Below are positions 38,172 through 64,000 of a stretch of 64,000 bases of DNA, in pieces. The DNA comes from Desulfonispora thiosulfatigenes DSM 11270 (GTDB lineage Bacteria > Bacillota > Peptococcia > Peptococcales > Desulfonisporaceae): positions 1-64,000 of the forward strand of contig NZ_FWWT01000008.1 of NCBI RefSeq assembly GCF_900176035.1. Direction: 5' to 3'. The notes beneath the pieces are model-generated. The model was not told the DNA's origin. It was given only the letters and a program-made list of their open reading frames with translations, and ran no database searches. Within the stretch, counting starts at the first letter, position 1. Each line of letters opens with the position of its first letter. Position numbers and translations under genes: made by a program.

Positions 38172-38948
38172 CTATTTTTCAGCCAGTTGGTGCTCTAGAC
38201 AAATAGTTGCTCCTGCTTTTTCTTCTGTACTAGTTCGTGCTGCAGTTGTAACTCCAGTAAAGTCAACTACATCATCTGCAACTGCTTTTGCTTTTGTAGT
38301 TACACCTACGGAAGCTGTTCCTGTATTTGCTCCAGCAATCGTACCACCAGAAACTGCGATATTACCTTCAGTCCTTTAAATAAGCCTGTTGCTGTTGCTG
38401 CTACAGTTATTGCCCCTGCTGCATTACTAACACTAAAGTTCCCTTTTAATATATTATTCTTTGCCATTACTTCTTTTAGAGCTGCTGTTTGCCCATTTGT
38501 AGCAGCTGCAGTTAGAGTTGCAGTTTGAGTAGCTTCAGTAGTTGTTACTTTACCACCAGTTAAGTTAGCATTTTTAGCCTTTCCTGTTTCTGCTAAGTTT
38601 GCTTTACCATCACCAGCTAAAAGTTTTTGGGTATTAAACTCAGTGGTATTCCCAATACGGTTAATTTCTGATGTTAGCTGATTCATTTCTTTTTGGATTT
38701 CTTCACGGTCAACTGTTACGTTAGTATCATTGGCTGCCTGGTCAGCTAGTTGTAAAATGCTGTGTGTTTCATTTAGAGCACCCTCAGCCGTTTGAATCAT
38801 AGAAATACCATCTTGAGAGTTTTTGGCTGCTTGATCTAAACCACGAATCTGACCACGCATTTTTTCAGAGATTGCAAGACCTGCTGCGTCATCTCCTGCT
38901 TTGTTAATTCTTAGACCTGAAGATAATTTCTCCATTGATTTGCTTTGA
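38172..38948 (-). pseudogene. Flagellin remnant 1 (N-terminus and C-terminus lost, frameshifted)
   Basis: The frame [21 protein letters not shown]...HSILQ is the flagellin N-terminal domain minus its first about 25 residues. A 4-codon gap removes RVRE after HSILQ. A -1 shift near 38375 carries on as [18 protein letters not shown]..., into the shared 3' block, ending at 38172. There is no flagellin C-terminus, exon 2 or intron. At its 5' side the sequence jumps at GCATTA into AGGTGGGCATAAG, a junction shared with flagellin 2. Confidence 0.85.
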
Positions 38949-39046
38949 GCATTAGGTGGGCATAAGAAAATGGAAGAATGAAAAACAGGTGTTCATAGGA
39001 AATTATTAGAACCTATTCATCATTTCTCCCATTAGAACTGCCTTTG

Positions 39047-43614: not shown

Positions 43615-43991
43615 CGGATCGTCAATTATCTTTCGATAACTGCCAGACTATATCTTCAACCATTTTCTTTCTTTGAGTACTAATGATTGTCGGGTACTTC
43701 GGGGAACCTCTTACCCCTACGGATCTCATCACCATAGCCTATTGCTTTAGGTGGTACATCCTAGTCGTTGAACCTTCTCCATCCTTTCGGAACAGGAGCT
43801 CGGCTGCTGATTATCCAATCTACCTCTTTTTAACCTTTCACGCTTACCTTTTCAGGTTACGTTGTAGGGAGGTTAGCTCTAAGGAAGTTCCAGCAATTCA
43901 CCCGATTTGCACTTAAAGGTTACCCCTTAAGGGACCCTGTAAATAACTACCTTAAGAGTTGTAATATTCCTTGAGGCATGCTATTTGCTTG
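43615..43991 (-). ncRNA. Group I intron in flagellin 2
   Basis: Minus-strand core motifs of group I introns: P GGTGAATTGCTGGAA (43888-43902), Q about AATCAGCAGCCGAG (43799-43814), R GGTTCAACGACTAG (43761-43774), S GAAGATATAGTCTG (43644-43657). R and S pair as P7 (GACUA/UAGUC). A GAAA-capped hairpin follows S, with a terminal G before exon 2. There is no endonuclease frame. Boundaries: the 3' end at G 43615 is favoured; the 5' end is either after GCU (43992 is the last exon base) or after CAACU (43957), see findings. The plus-strand frame across it (43683-43916) is a shadow. Confidence 0.9.
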
Positions 43992-45608
43992 AGCCATCAT
44001 AGCTTGAGCAGCTTGAGCTAAGATACCATTCTTAGTACTTTCCATGATTTCTTTAGCCATATCTACGTCACGTACACGAGATTCTGCAGCTGTTAAGTTT
44101 TCAGAAGATGTTCCTAAGTTGTTGATAGTATGTTCTAAACGGTTTTGAATAGCACCTAACTTGGAACGTTCAGCAGAAACATTTTTGATAGCTTTGTCAA
44201 TAGATTCTAATGCTAACGATGCACCAGATTGAGTTGACGCATCTACACCTGAAATACCTAAAGCTGATGTTCTCATATCATTAATACCAAAAGTAATAGT
44301 TTGCCCTTTATTAGCACCAATTTGGAAGGTCATACCACCATTACCACTAGCATCAGTTTGAGCTTGTGTCAAACCTAGATCTTTAACAGATGTTTTTCCT
44401 TCATAATCTTTAAACGTTACAGTTCCACTTTCACTTGTGATTTCAAATCTACCATCTTTAGTTGCATTAACTTTAACTTGCTCTACATAACCCTCTTCTC
44501 CAGCAGACTTACCTTGCAATGTGTTATAACTATCTACCGCAGTTTTAATTGCTGTTTGTAGGGCAGTTGCTGCAGCATCCATAGTTGTAGTATTATTTTC
44601 AATATCAGAACCAGTTGCTACTTTCATTTTAACACCATTTAAATCCATTTCAAAAGTAGCACCGCTAGAAACTGTGGATCCATTAAACTTATTGGTACCA
44701 GTATTTGTTGAAGCATCTGCAGTCACATCACCAGCAGTATCAGACATAATTAATGCACCAACACTGGTAGCAGCACCTTTAGTCGTAAGAGCTACAACAG
44801 AGTCAGTACCTTCTGTTCCACTTTTGATTACCAATTTTGCAGTAGCAGCTGTAGCACTATCCAAATAACCTTCTACATGCTGCACTGTTGCTCCAGCTGG
44901 ATTTTGAGCATTGTATTGATCAATTGCCTCATTTATTTTACTGGTAATTAGATCTTTCACAGAACTCAGTTGCGAGATATTAGATCCAGCCCCAATTGCT
45001 TTAATTTTATCCTTTTGTTCAGTTGTTAATAAAGTATCCCAATTAACTTCAATTGAGTGTCCATCAATATTAAAAGTATCCTTTTGAAAAGTGGTAGATG
45101 AGAGATCTGCAGCAAGAGCTTGTGCAGCAGTCATTTTACCGGCTTCAAGTTTACCCACTACAGCACTTGTAGTACTATTAGTACCAATAGTAGCACCTGA
45201 AGACTGAAGGTTACCATTAAGTAGCTTCTGAGTGTTAAACTCAGTAGTATTACCAATACGATCAATTTCTTCCTTTAATTGTTTAACTTCATCTTGAATA
45301 GCTTTACGATCTTCAGCAGTGTTAGTACCATTAGCTGATTGATCTGCAAGTTCACGCACTCTTTGTAGAATACTGTGAGTTTCATTCAATGCACCTTCAG
45401 CAGTTTGAACCATAGAAATACCATCTTGAGCGTTAGCACTCGCTTGGTTTAATCCACGAATCTGGCCACGCATTTTTTCAGAAATTGCAAGACCTGCTGC
45501 ATCATCTCCTGCTTTGTTAATACGAAGACCTGATGATAATTTCTCCATTGATTTACTTTGAGCTGTTGTTGCTCCATTCATCTGACGAAAAGCAACCTCA
45601 AATATCAA
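43947..45608 (-). CDS. Flagellin 2 (N-terminally truncated) with its own complete C-terminus
   Basis: 553-codon frame from TTG 45606-45608. It lacks the first about 15 flagellin residues: [12 protein letters not shown] replaces the expected MRINHNIAAL...QM start. Otherwise, the N-terminal domain ([20 protein letters not shown]...[14 protein letters not shown]), a low-complexity variable middle, and the C-terminal domain ([33 protein letters not shown]) are intact. It ends ...[19 protein letters not shown] before or within the intron. No SigD promoter or leader is present upstream. It is probably silent or a recombination donor. Confidence 0.85.
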
Positions 45609-46604: not shown

Positions 46605-47462
46605 CTACAATGTATTGACAGCATCTTTCAAATCGTCCATATGGCTATGAACATAGATACTGGTGGTTTTGAGGCTACTATGTCCTAATAATTTTGAGAT
46701 TTTGACTAGGTGAACATCGTTTTTGACTAGCTTAGAGGCAAAGGAATGGCGGAGAATATGAGCGGTGACTTTCTTTTTCCAACCTAGAGCACCTGTTGTT
46801 TCTCTAAATACTTTTGCTACTCTTGTAGGTGAAAGGGTACCTGATATTCTTGTAGCAAAGAAATATTCAGAGACTACTTTCCAGTTCTCATTGTAGTCCA
46901 CCAATAGTTTTTTCAATTTGGAGTTGATCGGTACAAACCTATCTTTGTTTCCCTTGCCATGCCTAATATGGATGAGATTATCCTCTAAGTTCACATCTTC
47001 GACCTTAAGATTTAGACATTCAGAAATACGCATCCCTGTATAATAGAGGGTTTGGGCTACTAATCGTACCAAGTCGTGCTTGATAGCTGCCACAAACAGG
47101 TTGACTTCTTCTTCCGATAGATAGTGTCGCTCTTTTTGCTGGCACTTGATAGGTTCTAATCTTGCGGTCACATTTTGGCTGCACCACTGGCTTTTGTAGG
47201 CGTAGCTGAAAAAGGAACGCATACTTCCTAGTACCCTTTTTCTACTGATAGGTTGATAATGTTTGATTTCCTTCAAATAATAAAGATAGTTTTCAATATC
47301 TTCTTGTGTAATATCTTCTAAATATATTAGGCAGTTGTATTTTTCTTGTAGATAGCGGTTCAGAAGGGTTAGATCTTCATAATAAGCTCTAATAGTGACT
47401 GGACTTCTTTCTATGTTCGCTTGATACCTTCCAAATAATTTGACTGCTTGCATAAATAACAT
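46605..47462 (-). CDS. Tyrosine recombinase, XerC/XerD-like
   Basis: 285 aa. N-terminal SAM-like core-binding domain (FGRYQANIERSPVTIRAYYED). The catalytic residues are all visible: Arg in YTGMRISECLNL, Lys in HGKGNKDRFVP, HxxR in ILRHSFASKL, His in KLLGHSSLKTTS, and the nucleophile Tyr in SIYVHSH. The start has AAGGAGG about 10 nt upstream. It should act on 7-bp-spacer sites such as S8 and others here (inference). Pairs with the HTH gene that follows. Confidence 0.9.
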   Translation of the reverse strand: MLFMQAVKLFGRYQANIERSPVTIRAYYEDLTLLNRYLQEKYNCLIYLEDITQEDIENYLYYLKEIKHYQPISRKRVLGSMRSFFSYAYKSQWCSQNVTARLEPIKCQQKERHYLSEEEVNLFVAAIKHDLVRLVAQTLYYTGMRISECLNLKVEDVNLEDNLIHIRHGKGNKDRFVPINSKLKKLLVDYNENWKVVSEYFFATRISGTLSPTRVAKVFRETTGALGWKKKVTAHILRHSFASKLVKNDVHLVKISKLLGHSSLKTTSIYVHSHMDDLKDAVNTL

Positions 47463-56380: not shown

Positions 56381-57274
56381 CTAGAGCAGATTGACCGCAT
56401 GCTGTTTTTCTTCTCTGCTGGTATTGATATAGTAGTCACTGGTGGTCTGGATATTAGCGTGCCCTGCTAACTTAGCTACGGTGGTTATTTCTACTCCCTT
56501 TTTTATTAGTCTTGTGCAAAAGGTATGTCGAAACTTATGGGGGTACATCTCTAGATGTAGCTGCTTGCCATGCTTTTTTAGAAGTTTATTGATGGTGTCC
56601 TTGTCCATTTTCTCTGCCCTTTGGGTCAGGAGCAGGTACTGGCTATCTACTAGCTTATGATTTTTCCTTTCACCTTCTAAGTAGTCTTTGATAGCTTCTA
56701 TTACTTCTGTTTTTAGAGGTACTTCTCGATATTTTCCACCCTTACCAACTACTTTTAGGTACATTGTTAGAAAATCTATATCTTTAGTTTTTAGATTTAC
56801 AAGCTCACTTACCCTTAGTCCTGTATAGAGTAGAAGTACAATAGCTGCTCTATCTCTTTGGCTAACATTATTTCTATTTTCTAGGTAGAATAGCAGGCGT
56901 TCTACTTCTTCATCTGTGAAAACTTCTACTTCTTGTTCGCTGCCACTGGCTACTTTAATTTTGTCTTTGCTTGGGTAGACTAGCAATTCCTTACACAAGT
57001 TTTGAGCTATTAGAAACTGGTTGAAACTGTGTAAGCTGTTGATCTTTTTGTTGATGGTGTTCACGCTATAGTTTTTTCCTACTAGGTATTCTTTGTAGCT
57101 GATGATGAAAAATCTTGTGAGCTCACCTGTGAACTCTATTTGCTTTGTTTCTAGCCAAGTCAAAAATCTAGCAATATCACCTGTATAGCTTACTACTGTT
57201 TTTCCGCCTTTGCCATCTACTATTAGGTATTCCTGAAAGGCTTGCAGGATTTCGTGGCTGCTCATATGTGCCAC
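56381..57274 (-). CDS. Tyrosine recombinase, XerD-like
   Basis: 297 aa from GTG 57272-57274 (GGGAGTG before it; an upstream GTG at 57283 and an ATG at 57265 are alternatives). N-terminal core-binding domain ILQAFQEYLIVDGKGGKTVV. Catalytic residues: Arg in YTGLRVSELVNL, Lys in GKGGKYREVPL, HxxR in HKFRHTFCTRL, His in KLAGHANIQTTS, Tyr in SDYYINTS. It lies between inverted sites S10-S11 upstream and S9 downstream. A relic is at 37697. Substrate sites are inferred, not shown. Confidence 0.92.
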   Translation of the reverse strand: MAHMSSHEILQAFQEYLIVDGKGGKTVVSYTGDIARFLTWLETKQIEFTGELTRFFIISYKEYLVGKNYSVNTINKKINSLHSFNQFLIAQNLCKELLVYPSKDKIKVASGSEQEVEVFTDEEVERLLFYLENRNNVSQRDRAAIVLLLYTGLRVSELVNLKTKDIDFLTMYLKVVGKGGKYREVPLKTEVIEAIKDYLEGERKNHKLVDSQYLLLTQRAEKMDKDTINKLLKKHGKQLHLEMYPHKFRHTFCTRLIKKGVEITTVAKLAGHANIQTTSDYYINTSREEKQHAVNLL

Positions 57275-57348
57275 TGCTATCACTCCCTGAAAGTTAGTAT
57301 GATTTTCTAGCTATACCTTCCCCTCCCCCTTTTTGCTCTGTTTTTACC

Positions 57349-58481: not shown

Positions 58482-58848
58482 CGGATCATCATATACCTTT
58501 CAATATATGCCAGACTATATCTTCAACCAAAATATTTTTTGATTGTCGGGTACTTCGGGGAACCTCTTACCCCTACGGATCTCATCACCATAGCCTAAAG
58601 CTTTAGGTAGTACATCCTAGTCGTTGAACCTTCTCCATCCTTTCGGAAGCAGGAGCTCGGCTGCTGATTATCCAATCTACCTCTTTTTAACCTTTCACGC
58701 TTATCTTTTCAGATTACGTTGTAGGGAGGATAGCTCTAAGGAAGTTCCAGCAATTCACCCGATTTGCACTTAAAGGTTACCCTTTAAGGGACCCTGTAAA
58801 TAACTACCTTAAGAGTTGTAATACTCCTTGAGGCATGCTATTTGCTTG
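58482..58848 (-). ncRNA. Group I intron in flagellin 3
   Basis: Same P, Q, R and S motifs as the intron at 43615-43991, with substitutions that keep pairing. The hairpin after S is CATATATT-GAAA-GGTATATG here and CAGTTATC-GAAA-GATAATTG there, so it covaries. Five-base P7 (GACUA/UAGUC) is conserved. No open reading frame. The 5' boundary is uncertain: 58848 if the exon ends GCU, or 58813 if it ends CAACU. Confidence 0.9.
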
Positions 58849-60507
58849 AGCCATCATTGCTTGAGCTGCTTGAGCTAAGATACCATTTTTAGTACTTTCC
58901 ATGATTTCTTTAGCCATGTCTACGTCACGTACACGTGATTCAGCTGCTGTTAAGTTTTCTGAAGAAGTACTTAAGTTCTTAATTGTATGCTCTAGTCTGT
59001 TTTGGTATGAACCTAATTCAGATCTTTGAGCTGATACTTTTTCTATAGCATCATTTATTTTAGTAATAGATGCAGATGCTGTTTCATGAGATGATACATC
59101 TAATGCTGCTTCTACTACAGTATTATTTGTTCCATTAGTTACAGAATTTCCAGATGTAAAACCATCATCTCCAGACTTTCCTGTTAATCCTAATGCTTTT
59201 GCTCTCATATCTTTTATTTCTATAGTCATACTTTGACCTTGGTTAGCACCAACTTGGAAGTTAGATTTAAAGTTTTCTTGAACCCCACCATCTGCAGTTG
59301 TAATATTATTACCTGCTTTTCCACCTTGATTAGCCGTTACCTTTAAGTCGTTAGTAGCATTTGATAATGTAACACCATCAATTTTAGCCTGAGCAACTAT
59401 AGCATTTGTTAAGCCTTCCTTTGTAGTAACTCCATTGATGTTAATACCTTGTGCGTCACCTTTATAAGCTCCTTTATTTGCATCATAGAATTCAAGAGTT
59501 ACATCTCCTATTGTAATCCCTTTTCCTTCTAATCCCTTAGCAACATCTGCATCTGCAGGCATGGTTAATGTCTTAGTCGCTTGAACTGCAGCAGTTGTAG
59601 TTCCTTTGTTAGCAGGTCCTATAGTTCCTAATGTACTTATATTCGCGGTACCACTAGCAACTGCAAGAGCTATATCACCTGCAGAACCTTCAAATTTTCC
59701 GCCTTTAACAGCTGATACTGTAACATTAGCGCCTGTCCCTGACACTACATAGTTACCTTTTAATACATCATTACTATCTATAACCTTTTGTAGTGCATCT
59801 CTAGCACCTGCTGCAGTTTCATCTACAGTTTGACTTCCATCAATATTTACTGAAGCGCTGTTTTGTGTAACATTATATCCTTCATGAGATGGTTTACTAG
59901 AAGTATCCGCAGCTGCAAAGCTAATATCTATCGCTTGACCGTTAAGGGTAACTTTAAGTGTAGATGTAGCATCAGCAGCTGTACCTACTACAGTTGTACT
60001 TGTTGCTTCCACAGTTTTTATATCTTCCCCACCAGTAAGATTACCTAAACTTGCTACAGCAACACCAATACCATCTAATGTTTTTCCACCATCACCCTTT
60101 AAAAGTGCTTGAGTATTAAACTCTGTAGTATTACCTATTCTGTTTATTTCAGAAGTCAATTGGTTCATTTCTTTTTGGATCTCATTTCGATCAACATCCA
60201 CATTTGTGTCATTCGATGCTTGAGTAGCTAGTTCACGCATACGTTGAAGAATACTATGGGTTTCATTTAGAGCACCCTCAGCTGTTTGAATCATAGAAAT
60301 ACCATCTTGAGAGTTTTTTGCTGCTTGGTCTAAACCGCGAATCTGCCCACGCATTTTTTCAGAAATTGCAAGACCTGCTGCGTCATCTCCTGCACGGTTA
60401 ATTCTTAGACCTGAAGATAATTTTTCCATTGATTTGCTTTGAGCATTAGTTGCACCGCTCATCTGACGATAAGTGTTAAGTGCGGCGATATTGTGATTAA
60501 TTCTCAT
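58804..60507 (-). CDS. hag: Flagellin 3, full length with SigD promoter (probable filament protein)
   Basis: 567 aa. MRINHNIAALNTYRQMSGAT is an intact flagellin N-terminus, followed by [20 protein letters not shown]. The middle (about 150-400) is Thr/Ala/Gly-rich and variable. The C-terminal [32 protein letters not shown] is conserved, ending SMPQGVLQLLR-TAG. It is the only flagellin here with promoter, leader and complete N-terminus. Its 3' end carries a group I intron and a second C-terminal exon. FliS, encoded upstream, is its chaperone. Confidence 0.93.
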   Translation of the reverse strand: MRINHNIAALNTYRQMSGATNAQSKSMEKLSSGLRINRAGDDAAGLAISEKMRGQIRGLDQAAKNSQDGISMIQTAEGALNETHSILQRMRELATQASNDTNVDVDRNEIQKEMNQLTSEINRIGNTTEFNTQALLKGDGGKTLDGIGVAVASLGNLTGGEDIKTVEATSTTVVGTAADATSTLKVTLNGQAIDISFAAADTSSKPSHEGYNVTQNSASVNIDGSQTVDETAAGARDALQKVIDSNDVLKGNYVVSGTGANVTVSAVKGGKFEGSAGDIALAVASGTANISTLGTIGPANKGTTTAAVQATKTLTMPADADVAKGLEGKGITIGDVTLEFYDANKGAYKGDAQGININGVTTKEGLTNAIVAQAKIDGVTLSNATNDLKVTANQGGKAGNNITTADGGVQENFKSNFQVGANQGQSMTIEIKDMRAKALGLTGKSGDDGFTSGNSVTNGTNNTVVEAALDVSSHETASASITKINDAIEKVSAQRSELGSYQNRLEHTIKNLSTSSENLTAAESRVRDVDMAKEIMESTKNGILAQAAQAMMAQANSMPQGVLQLLR

Positions 60508-60515
60508 TTGTAAAA

Positions 60516-60551
60516 ACCTCCCTGTTTTTTTGGGGCGACGTCCTTGTCGCC
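60516..60551 (-). promoter_or_regulatory. CsrA-like binding sites in the flagellin 3 leader
   Basis: Minus strand: a 6-bp stem GGCGAC/GTCGCC displays AAGGAC in the loop (60534-60551); ACAAGGACGT differs at one base from the CsrA consensus ACARGGATGT. A second site, ACAGGGAGGT (60516-60525), overlaps the Shine-Dalgarno. The pair mimics the two CsrA sites in the Bacillus subtilis hag leader. A long stem lies upstream (about 60560-60640, GATAACCTTTTC with GAAAAGTTATC). Confidence 0.6.
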
Positions 60552-60658
60552 TATATTGATAACTTTTCGAAGATTTATATCCTTTTATAAGATTAAAAAT
60601 CTTATCTTTAGTTTAAAATCTTTGAAAAGGTTATCTGTTTTTTTGTCTTACACTCTTT

Positions 60659-60685
60659 ATATCGGTTTTGTTTTCAAAAAGTTTA
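60659..60685 (-). promoter_or_regulatory. SigD (sigma-28) promoter of flagellin 3
   Basis: Minus strand TAAA (60682-60685), 15-bp spacer, ACCGATAT (60659-60666). This matches the SigD consensus TAAA-N15-GCCGATAT with one change. It lies about 150 bp before the flagellin start, giving a long leader. Confidence 0.85.
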
Positions 60686-63515: not shown

Positions 63516-63893
63516 TTAAACTTTTTCATCCACAAATATTCCCGCAAGGTCCCACATGGAGGCAACCATGTCTAATATTTTTTCCGAAGGGATTTCCCTG
63601 ATTACTTCATCATTGTTTTTATCAATTACTTTAACCATGATTTCTTTAGTTTTTTCATGAATAGAGTATTCAAAACGAGTTTCTGTGAGTTCTAAGGATT
63701 TATTTGCCGTTTCGATTGCTTTAATTATTTGCTCGGCTTTATATTTATTTTCTTCGTTATACTTTTTTTCTTCGCTACCTGCGGTGTCTTTACTTTTTAC
63801 GACTTGGATATTTTCTTTTTCCTGCTTGCGATTTGTTTCTTTAAAAGCATCATTATACACGGGAGAATTACTATTTATAGAGGTTACTTTCAT
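63516..63893 (-). CDS. flaG: FlaG family protein
   Basis: 125 aa. The C-terminal core is LELTETRFEYSIHEKTKEIM, then VKVIDKNNDEVIREIPSEKILDMVASMWDLAG. FlaG affects filament length in some bacteria. It starts 4 bp inside the stop of the preceding gene. Confidence 0.9.
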   Translation of the reverse strand: MKVTSINSNSPVYNDAFKETNRKQEKENIQVVKSKDTAGSEEKKYNEENKYKAEQIIKAIETANKSLELTETRFEYSIHEKTKEIMVKVIDKNNDEVIREIPSEKILDMVASMWDLAGIFVDEKV

Positions 63894-64000
63894 TTTTCCT
63901 CGTCTCCTTTTGGTGTAGAATTAAATAAATTAAAATCAATTTCGGCGGTAGTTATTTTTCCGGCGGTGATATTTTCACTTTTTACGGCTTCATAGATTTC
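63890..64000 (-). CDS. C-terminal end of a gene running off the right edge
   Basis: The minus-strand frame stays open from base 64000 to TGA 63890-63892 and reads EIYEAVKSENITAGKITTAE, then IDFNLFNSTPKGDEEK. The stop overlaps the flaG start (ATGA). Probably another motility gene; identity not recoverable from 36 residues. Confidence 0.6.
   Translation of the reverse strand, partial: EIYEAVKSENITAGKITTAEIDFNLFNSTPKGDEEK

Follow-up and report, generated by a model that had tools for sequence, protein, structure and literature searches.

A candidate two-hairpin CsrA-FliW switch in the flagellin leader of Desulfonispora thiosulfatigenes, compared with other flagellin leaders

The flagellin mRNA of Bacillus subtilis, hag, carries two CsrA sites, one of which covers the Shine-Dalgarno (SD) sequence (PMC7652899, PMC6529632, PMC8523840). 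In this organism fliW precedes csrA, and the SD of csrA lies within fliW, where its mutation affects motility (PMC6529632). The flaA leader of Campylobacter jejuni, described as 45 nt long, forms two stem-loops, SL1 and SL2, each with ANGGA in its loop, supported by compensatory pairs and with the second over the ribosome site; both have been footprinted with CsrA and mutated (PMC4894983). For fliC of Clostridioides difficile the sites BS1, TGACAAGGATGT, and BS2, an AAGGAGG site with the sequence CTAAGGAGGG, are described as predicted, not footprinted (PMC8523840). The consensus of CsrA ligands selected by SELEX is RUACARGGAUGU; in most of these ligands an AC/GU-closed loop of six bases presents GGA, and most of the hairpins have four or fewer contiguous pairs (PMC7652899).

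Here we describe a leader of this kind in Desulfonispora thiosulfatigenes DSM 11270. It lies in a window of 64,000 nucleotides (the whole stretch that was analysed; GCF_900176035.1, contig NZ_FWWT01000008.1, positions 1 to 64,000), the features of which are collected in Table 1. Judged by its sequence, the leader appears to be the known CsrA-FliW-flagellin switch in one more lineage, a kind of switch that is well understood, and flagellin production is very probably throttled by CsrA as in B. subtilis and Campylobacter. The parts of the switch are intact in a lineage that has no close relative among the genomes compared. As in C. jejuni there are two stem-loops, although the leader is longer, about 145 nt if transcription begins just past the promoter, and fliW adjoins csrA, whereas in C. 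jejuni it is described as not doing so. The pair of sites is like that of C. difficile, except that BS2 is without the C found in the window. Compared through published descriptions, the locus differs from hag in its lineage and in having a long AT-rich 5' stem-loop in the leader, and its flagellin gene has additional flagellin copies around it and a group I intron at its end.

Table 1. Features of the flagellin locus. Positions are those of the window unless preceded by C8
Feature	Position	Strand	Basis or remark
SigD (sigma-28) type promoter of the flagellin gene, TAAA-N15-ACCGATAT	60659..60685	-	pattern match
Long AT-rich imperfect 5' stem-loop	60558..60635	-	minimum-energy fold; arms 60616-60635 and 60558-60576, inner 8-bp hairpin 60587-60605
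Hairpin 1, GGCGAC-AAGGAC-GUCGCC, GGA in hexaloop	60534..60551	-	shuffles, covariation, covariance model, fold, start-triplet scan
Candidate CsrA site 1, ACAAGGACGT	60538-60547	minus	read from sequence
Hairpin 2, AAAAAC-AGGGAG-GUUUUU, loop holds SD	60512..60529	-	SD composition, covariation, start-triplet scan
Candidate CsrA site 2, ACAGGGAGGT	60516-60525	minus	read from sequence; overlaps SD
SD AGGGAGG	60517-60523	minus	inside hairpin 2 loop
Flagellin gene, 567 aa, predicted regulated target	58804..60507	-	ATG at 60507; Pfam Flagellin_N and Flagellin_C
Flagellin-like stretches (three in window)	38306-38956, 43947-45608, 58804-60507		
Integrase-family genes	46605-47462, 56381-57283		
Group I introns at 3' ends of flagellin copies	58491-58812, 43624-43955	-	Rfam, 102 and 96 bits
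flaG	63516..63893	-	Pfam FlaG, E 1.4e-28; ATG overlaps csrA stop (ATGA)
csrA, 3' part	63890..64000	-	last 111 bases of gene; whole gene C8 63890-64135, 81 aa
fliW	C8 64138-64593		just past right edge of window, directly before csrA

Both sites, which lie on the minus strand, had been noticed in the initial annotation, which placed them exactly where we find them and gave each as one base away from the CsrA consensus. This is true of each against the 10-base core ACARGGAUGU; against the full 12-base consensus there are three mismatches in site 1 and two in site 2. Likeness to the consensus proves nothing alone, since the genome shows no enrichment of ACARGGAYGT (7 occurrences against 21 for the reversed control pattern). 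Hairpin 1, a perfect 6-bp stem with the loop AAGGAC, is built like most CsrA ligands obtained by SELEX (PMC7652899), and site 2 is itself a hairpin, which had been overlooked, with a 6-bp stem and the loop AGGGAG. As in leaders of the hag and flaA type, two GGA sites precede the flagellin start, one of them over the SD; the distance from GGA to GGA is 22 nt. With its six GC-rich pairs against the SELEX norm, hairpin 1 could have an affinity for CsrA below the usual.

A GGA-hexaloop hairpin of at least six pairs occurs in 1% of 20 000 shuffles of the leader. Among the 5453 start triplets of the window (ATG, GTG and TTG on both strands), the flagellin ATG alone has an upstream GGA-hexaloop hairpin of at least 5 bp, and it is likewise the single triplet (1/5453) at which such a hairpin stands together with an SD hairpin of at least 4 bp. 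The minimum-energy fold of the leader by itself (-34.8 kcal/mol, z -5.0) contains hairpin 1; hairpin 2 is absent from it. The AT-rich stem-loop of the same fold sits close to where the flagellin mRNA is expected to begin, and perhaps protects its 5' end.

So strongly folded a leader would also accord with hairpins of a passive kind, hairpin 1 insulating or stabilising the mRNA and site 2 being an ordinary SD that contains GGA by chance. GGA is part of any AGGAGG, and 5' stem-loops are common in stable Gram-positive mRNAs. The comparison that bears on this covers 93 leaders, namely that of the window, 77 of 80 loci from named genomes (L049, L068 and L071, in which the match does not start at residue 1, were left out) and 15 from relatives. 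Left out among the relatives were L087, the leader of which is a run of N and which is the best flagellin match of this group (genome G009), L097, L100, L102-L104, L113 and L114, where the start was unrecognised, and L105-L109, which are other or partial matches. The relatives retrieved belong solely to other families of the order of D. thiosulfatigenes, and searches of the order and the class gave no leader closer than those used.

In their last 100 nt, 77 of the 93 leaders have a best GGA-hexaloop hairpin of at least four pairs, compared with 5.6% of shuffled leaders; in nine of these 77 the SD hairpin is itself the best. Counting upstream of the SD only, such a hairpin is found in 73 of these leaders and in 71 of a further 104, and the spacing of 22 nt is the commonest value in both sets. 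Two-sided changes occur at 11/11 pairs (alignment A1, 93 leaders), seven of them in hairpin 1 and four in hairpin 2, with a covariation score of 0.486 against 0.144 when shuffled (0/500) and 0.11-0.15 with the partners slid. The GGA in the loop of hairpin 1 is kept, its columns G15, G16 and A17 (window numbering) being conserved at 90% or more, while the stem undergoes compensatory changes as in leaders of the hag and flaA type, and this argues against a passive hairpin. The outer pair of hairpin 2 is kept in only 47 of the 93 leaders, and the stem of the window, AAC..GUU, is the rarer version, the common one being UUC..GAA (pair 48-57 is A-U in 8 and U-A in 72).

The SDs of flagellin genes differ also from those of other genes at the same loci, for which open frames of at least 200 codons with an SD score of at least 6 served as controls. 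At GGA-3, C is the base in 93% of the flagellin SDs (n = 91) and in 10% of the others (n = 218), and at least three Watson-Crick pairs surround the SD hexaloop in 64% against 1.8%. Since flagellin SDs are set apart in these two ways, site 2 seems to have been selected as a CsrA hairpin beyond its use as a ribosome site, contrary to what passive hairpins would lead one to expect.

A two-hairpin covariance model (R1) gives the leader of the window, one of the 93 rows on which it was trained, 46.7 bits (E 1.5e-5 for the genome). Elsewhere in the genome (2.41 Mb) the maximum is 24.3 bits (E 0.47); this match, at C7:45955-46006, was considered as a second CsrA target and judged to be due to chance. 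The model, provided here as a base-pair description of the operator, reaches E <=0.01 at 85 of 109 further flagellin loci (53/69 and 32/40), which were taken, not at random but as the best flagellin matches, from 398 genomes drawn from the phylum; 24 of the 109 fall short of this threshold. The phylum is taken to be Bacillota from the named relatives, and the further set is not fully independent because it includes some near copies of named loci (L206 and L076 are alike). A leader was obtained from 104 of 119 loci of the further set, and of the 15 missed L209, L211, L220, L223 and L230 were lost to an over-strict pattern. Rfam at its cut-off finds no family in the leader of the window. Seven matches there below the cut-off were judged to be chance, as was rliG in the leader of L029 (22.9 bits against a cut-off of 55).

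The initial annotation had stated that the window contains neither csrA nor fliW, supposing that they might lie beyond its right edge by flaG, and its reading would have been refuted by a genome lacking csrA. The genome has both genes, and they do lie directly beyond flaG; fliW is outside the window as stated, but the 3' part of csrA is within it. The CsrA match scores 87.7 bits (C8:63980-64135) and the FliW match 125.5 bits (C8:64177-64536). The former protein matches the solved CsrA structure 2bti (E 1e-14) and for the latter the best match is the FliW chain of 5dmb (E 1e-22), an entry that also contains a CsrA chain. CsrA retains L4, R44 and N55, the first two of which we take to be RNA-contact residues, and its antagonist FliW is encoded beside it, so that the two proteins of a CsrA-FliW-controlled leader are at hand. 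N55D CsrA has been combined with the wild type to build a dimer with one FliW site (PMC6529632). The SD of csrA, GGAGGG, is inside the last codons of fliW, and two bases separate the fliW stop from the csrA ATG, an arrangement like that of B. subtilis. Between csrA and the flagellin gene, in the same flagellar cluster, are fliS, a FlgN-like gene, fliD and flaG.

The presence of csrA and fliW was checked in 28 genomes, 15 picked because their leaders were strong and 13 because matches were weak or missing. Both genes are present in every one of the former. Both are missing from five of the 13 (G216, G094, G100, G047 and G212), and fliW alone is missing from G183 of the same group. In a scripted count covering 27 of the 28 leaders (L160 is outside the set), the GGA hairpin has fewer than four pairs in 5/5 csrA-less leaders against 7/22 csrA-positive ones (p 0.0098) and fewer than three in 4/5 against 3/22 (p 0.009); as the genomes were chosen by leader strength, the p values are a guide only and the result is supporting evidence. 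The link between csrA and the hairpin is not absolute, since G142, G232 and G406 have csrA and no GGA hairpin of even three pairs; G406 has a 2-pair GGA loop, yet a strong model score. Absence of the four-pair hairpin from all csrA-less leaders of this chosen sample speaks once more against passive hairpins, an explanation which we now consider very improbable.

Two of the csrA-less genomes retain something of the hairpin. In the leader of G216 (L142), where neither csrA nor fliW was found, the stem stays and the loop is without GGA (GAGC-AGAT-GCTC), perhaps an intermediate of decay, and a 3-bp hairpin is left in that of G212. In L172 (G206) and L210 (G183) csrA is immediately upstream of the flagellin gene, and G206 has two csrA matches.

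That CsrA is the protein bound by the loops is reasoned from relatives, and a different GGA-binding regulator or a small RNA could act on them in its place; FliW itself shifts the hag leader, although with an affinity far below that between FliW and CsrA (PMC6529632). The motif, however, is that selected by CsrA in SELEX (PMC7652899), and csrA belongs to the same flagellar cluster with residues 4 and 44 kept, and we consider another regulator very improbable. Hairpin 1 is a perfect GC-rich inverted repeat within the transcribed region, but its reading as an intrinsic terminator or as a transcription-factor dyad in the DNA is scarcely credible and was rejected, since the sequence after the hairpin on the flagellin strand, CCAAAAAA, is not a T run, and since its stem varies in sequence between genera with pairing kept, which is unexpected for a DNA-binding site.

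The flagellin gene had been called the expressed one, and at the level of sequence the term is apt. The pattern TAAAN{14,16}CCGATAT, which we take to be the SigD consensus, has a single match in the window (0.11 expected), upstream of this leader, and the two other flagellin copies are 5'-incomplete, those near 45593 and 38956 aligning just from residues 12 and 20 onward. The leader is not among the 17 direct-repeat families (at least 40 nt) found over 37500-60800. With partial copies, one promoter and a leader outside the repeats, the CsrA operator would be confined to the copy that begins at 60507. The two start-less copies have long repeats in common with the expressed one and lie near two integrase-family genes, and the whole looks like a set of cassettes for flagellin variation. 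Because the promoter and the CsrA leader belong to one copy alone, flagellin sequence recombined in past about codon 19 would presumably remain under the same translational switch.

We are highly confident that a two-hairpin CsrA operator, relieved by FliW and allowing autorepression by flagellin, is the best explanation of this locus. The CsrA-FliW type of control proposed in the initial annotation gains support from the presence of csrA and fliW, and the covariation, the SD composition and the small presence/absence sample agree with it. The promoter, the paired hairpins with their spacing and the close coupling of csrA to fliW can be read in the DNA. The flagellin mRNA begun at the SigD-type promoter would carry the operator, and, by analogy with the relatives, one face of a CsrA dimer would grip the stable upstream hairpin while the other face takes the weak SD-GGA hairpin 22 nt downstream. 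Tethering and bridging by CsrA have been described for E. coli glgC (PMC7652899). Bridging of the two hairpins by one dimer would exclude ribosomes, and FliW would strip CsrA from the leader. Cytoplasmic flagellin awaiting export would in turn occupy FliW and leave CsrA free again, so that in this proposal flagellin would repress its own translation for as long as it cannot be exported.

The CsrA leader is in itself ordinary, and the main interest of the analysis lies in a by-product of the comparison. In 88 of 197 leaders a hairpin presents a GC-rich six-base palindrome in its loop, against 96 of 3940 shuffles (2.4%, or about 5 expected per 197). The palindrome is CGGCCG in 62 of the 88 and one of ten others in the remaining 26, among them GGGCCC, GCGCGC, TGGCCA and GAGCUC; examples are at L029 7923-7956, from Anoxybacillus tepidamans, and in L088 and L161. 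CGGCCG is found between -130 and -42 in 97 of the 197 leaders and the octamer GCGGCCGA in 49. The arms flanking GCGGCCGA pair and covary: there are 48 distinct flanks, and the first three pairs are standard in 98, 96 and 85%, the first being nearly always G-C and the second and third varying between G-C, A-T, T-A and C-G. Pairing is less when the partners are slid. When the strongest hairpin of the region is taken whatever its loop, that loop nevertheless holds a palindrome in 64 of 170 leaders; the figures for shuffles and for random stretches from the same loci are 3.2% and 3.4%. Rfam at its cut-offs has no family for this hairpin in the leaders of eight loci, and we recognised no description of it in the literature searched, which was partial; it may still be described.

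In HIV-1 the dimerisation site is an apical-loop palindrome (PMC4066764), the same layout as these 5' hairpins with their self-complementary hexamers. A kissing-loop dimer is suggested by several different hexamers, all self-complementary, occupying one place. On such sequence grounds it is possible, though rather doubtful, that many Bacillota flagellin mRNAs pair as kissing dimers through their 5' loops, and the hairpin may instead be a protein site or serve to protect the 5' end. The GC-rich palindrome-loop hairpin was not found in the leader of the window, where the long AT-rich stem-loop sits instead; the lineage would then be a natural case of loss. If true, kissing dimers could alter the stability or the localisation of the mRNA, or the bridging of sites by the CsrA dimer.

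Two flagellin copies of the window end in group I introns (Table 1), and a flagellin intron is known from a thermophilic Bacillus (PMC3984707). Beyond the first of the two introns listed a second stretch reads, by eye, QANQQPQGVLQLLR. Group I introns were also seen at L011 9204-9532, at L071 9336-9671 (Heyndrickxia sporothermodurans) and at L041 9351-9709 (Geobacillus jurassicus), where they lie 1.2-1.4 kb beyond the point at which the flagellin match starts and hence probably close to the 3' end of the gene.
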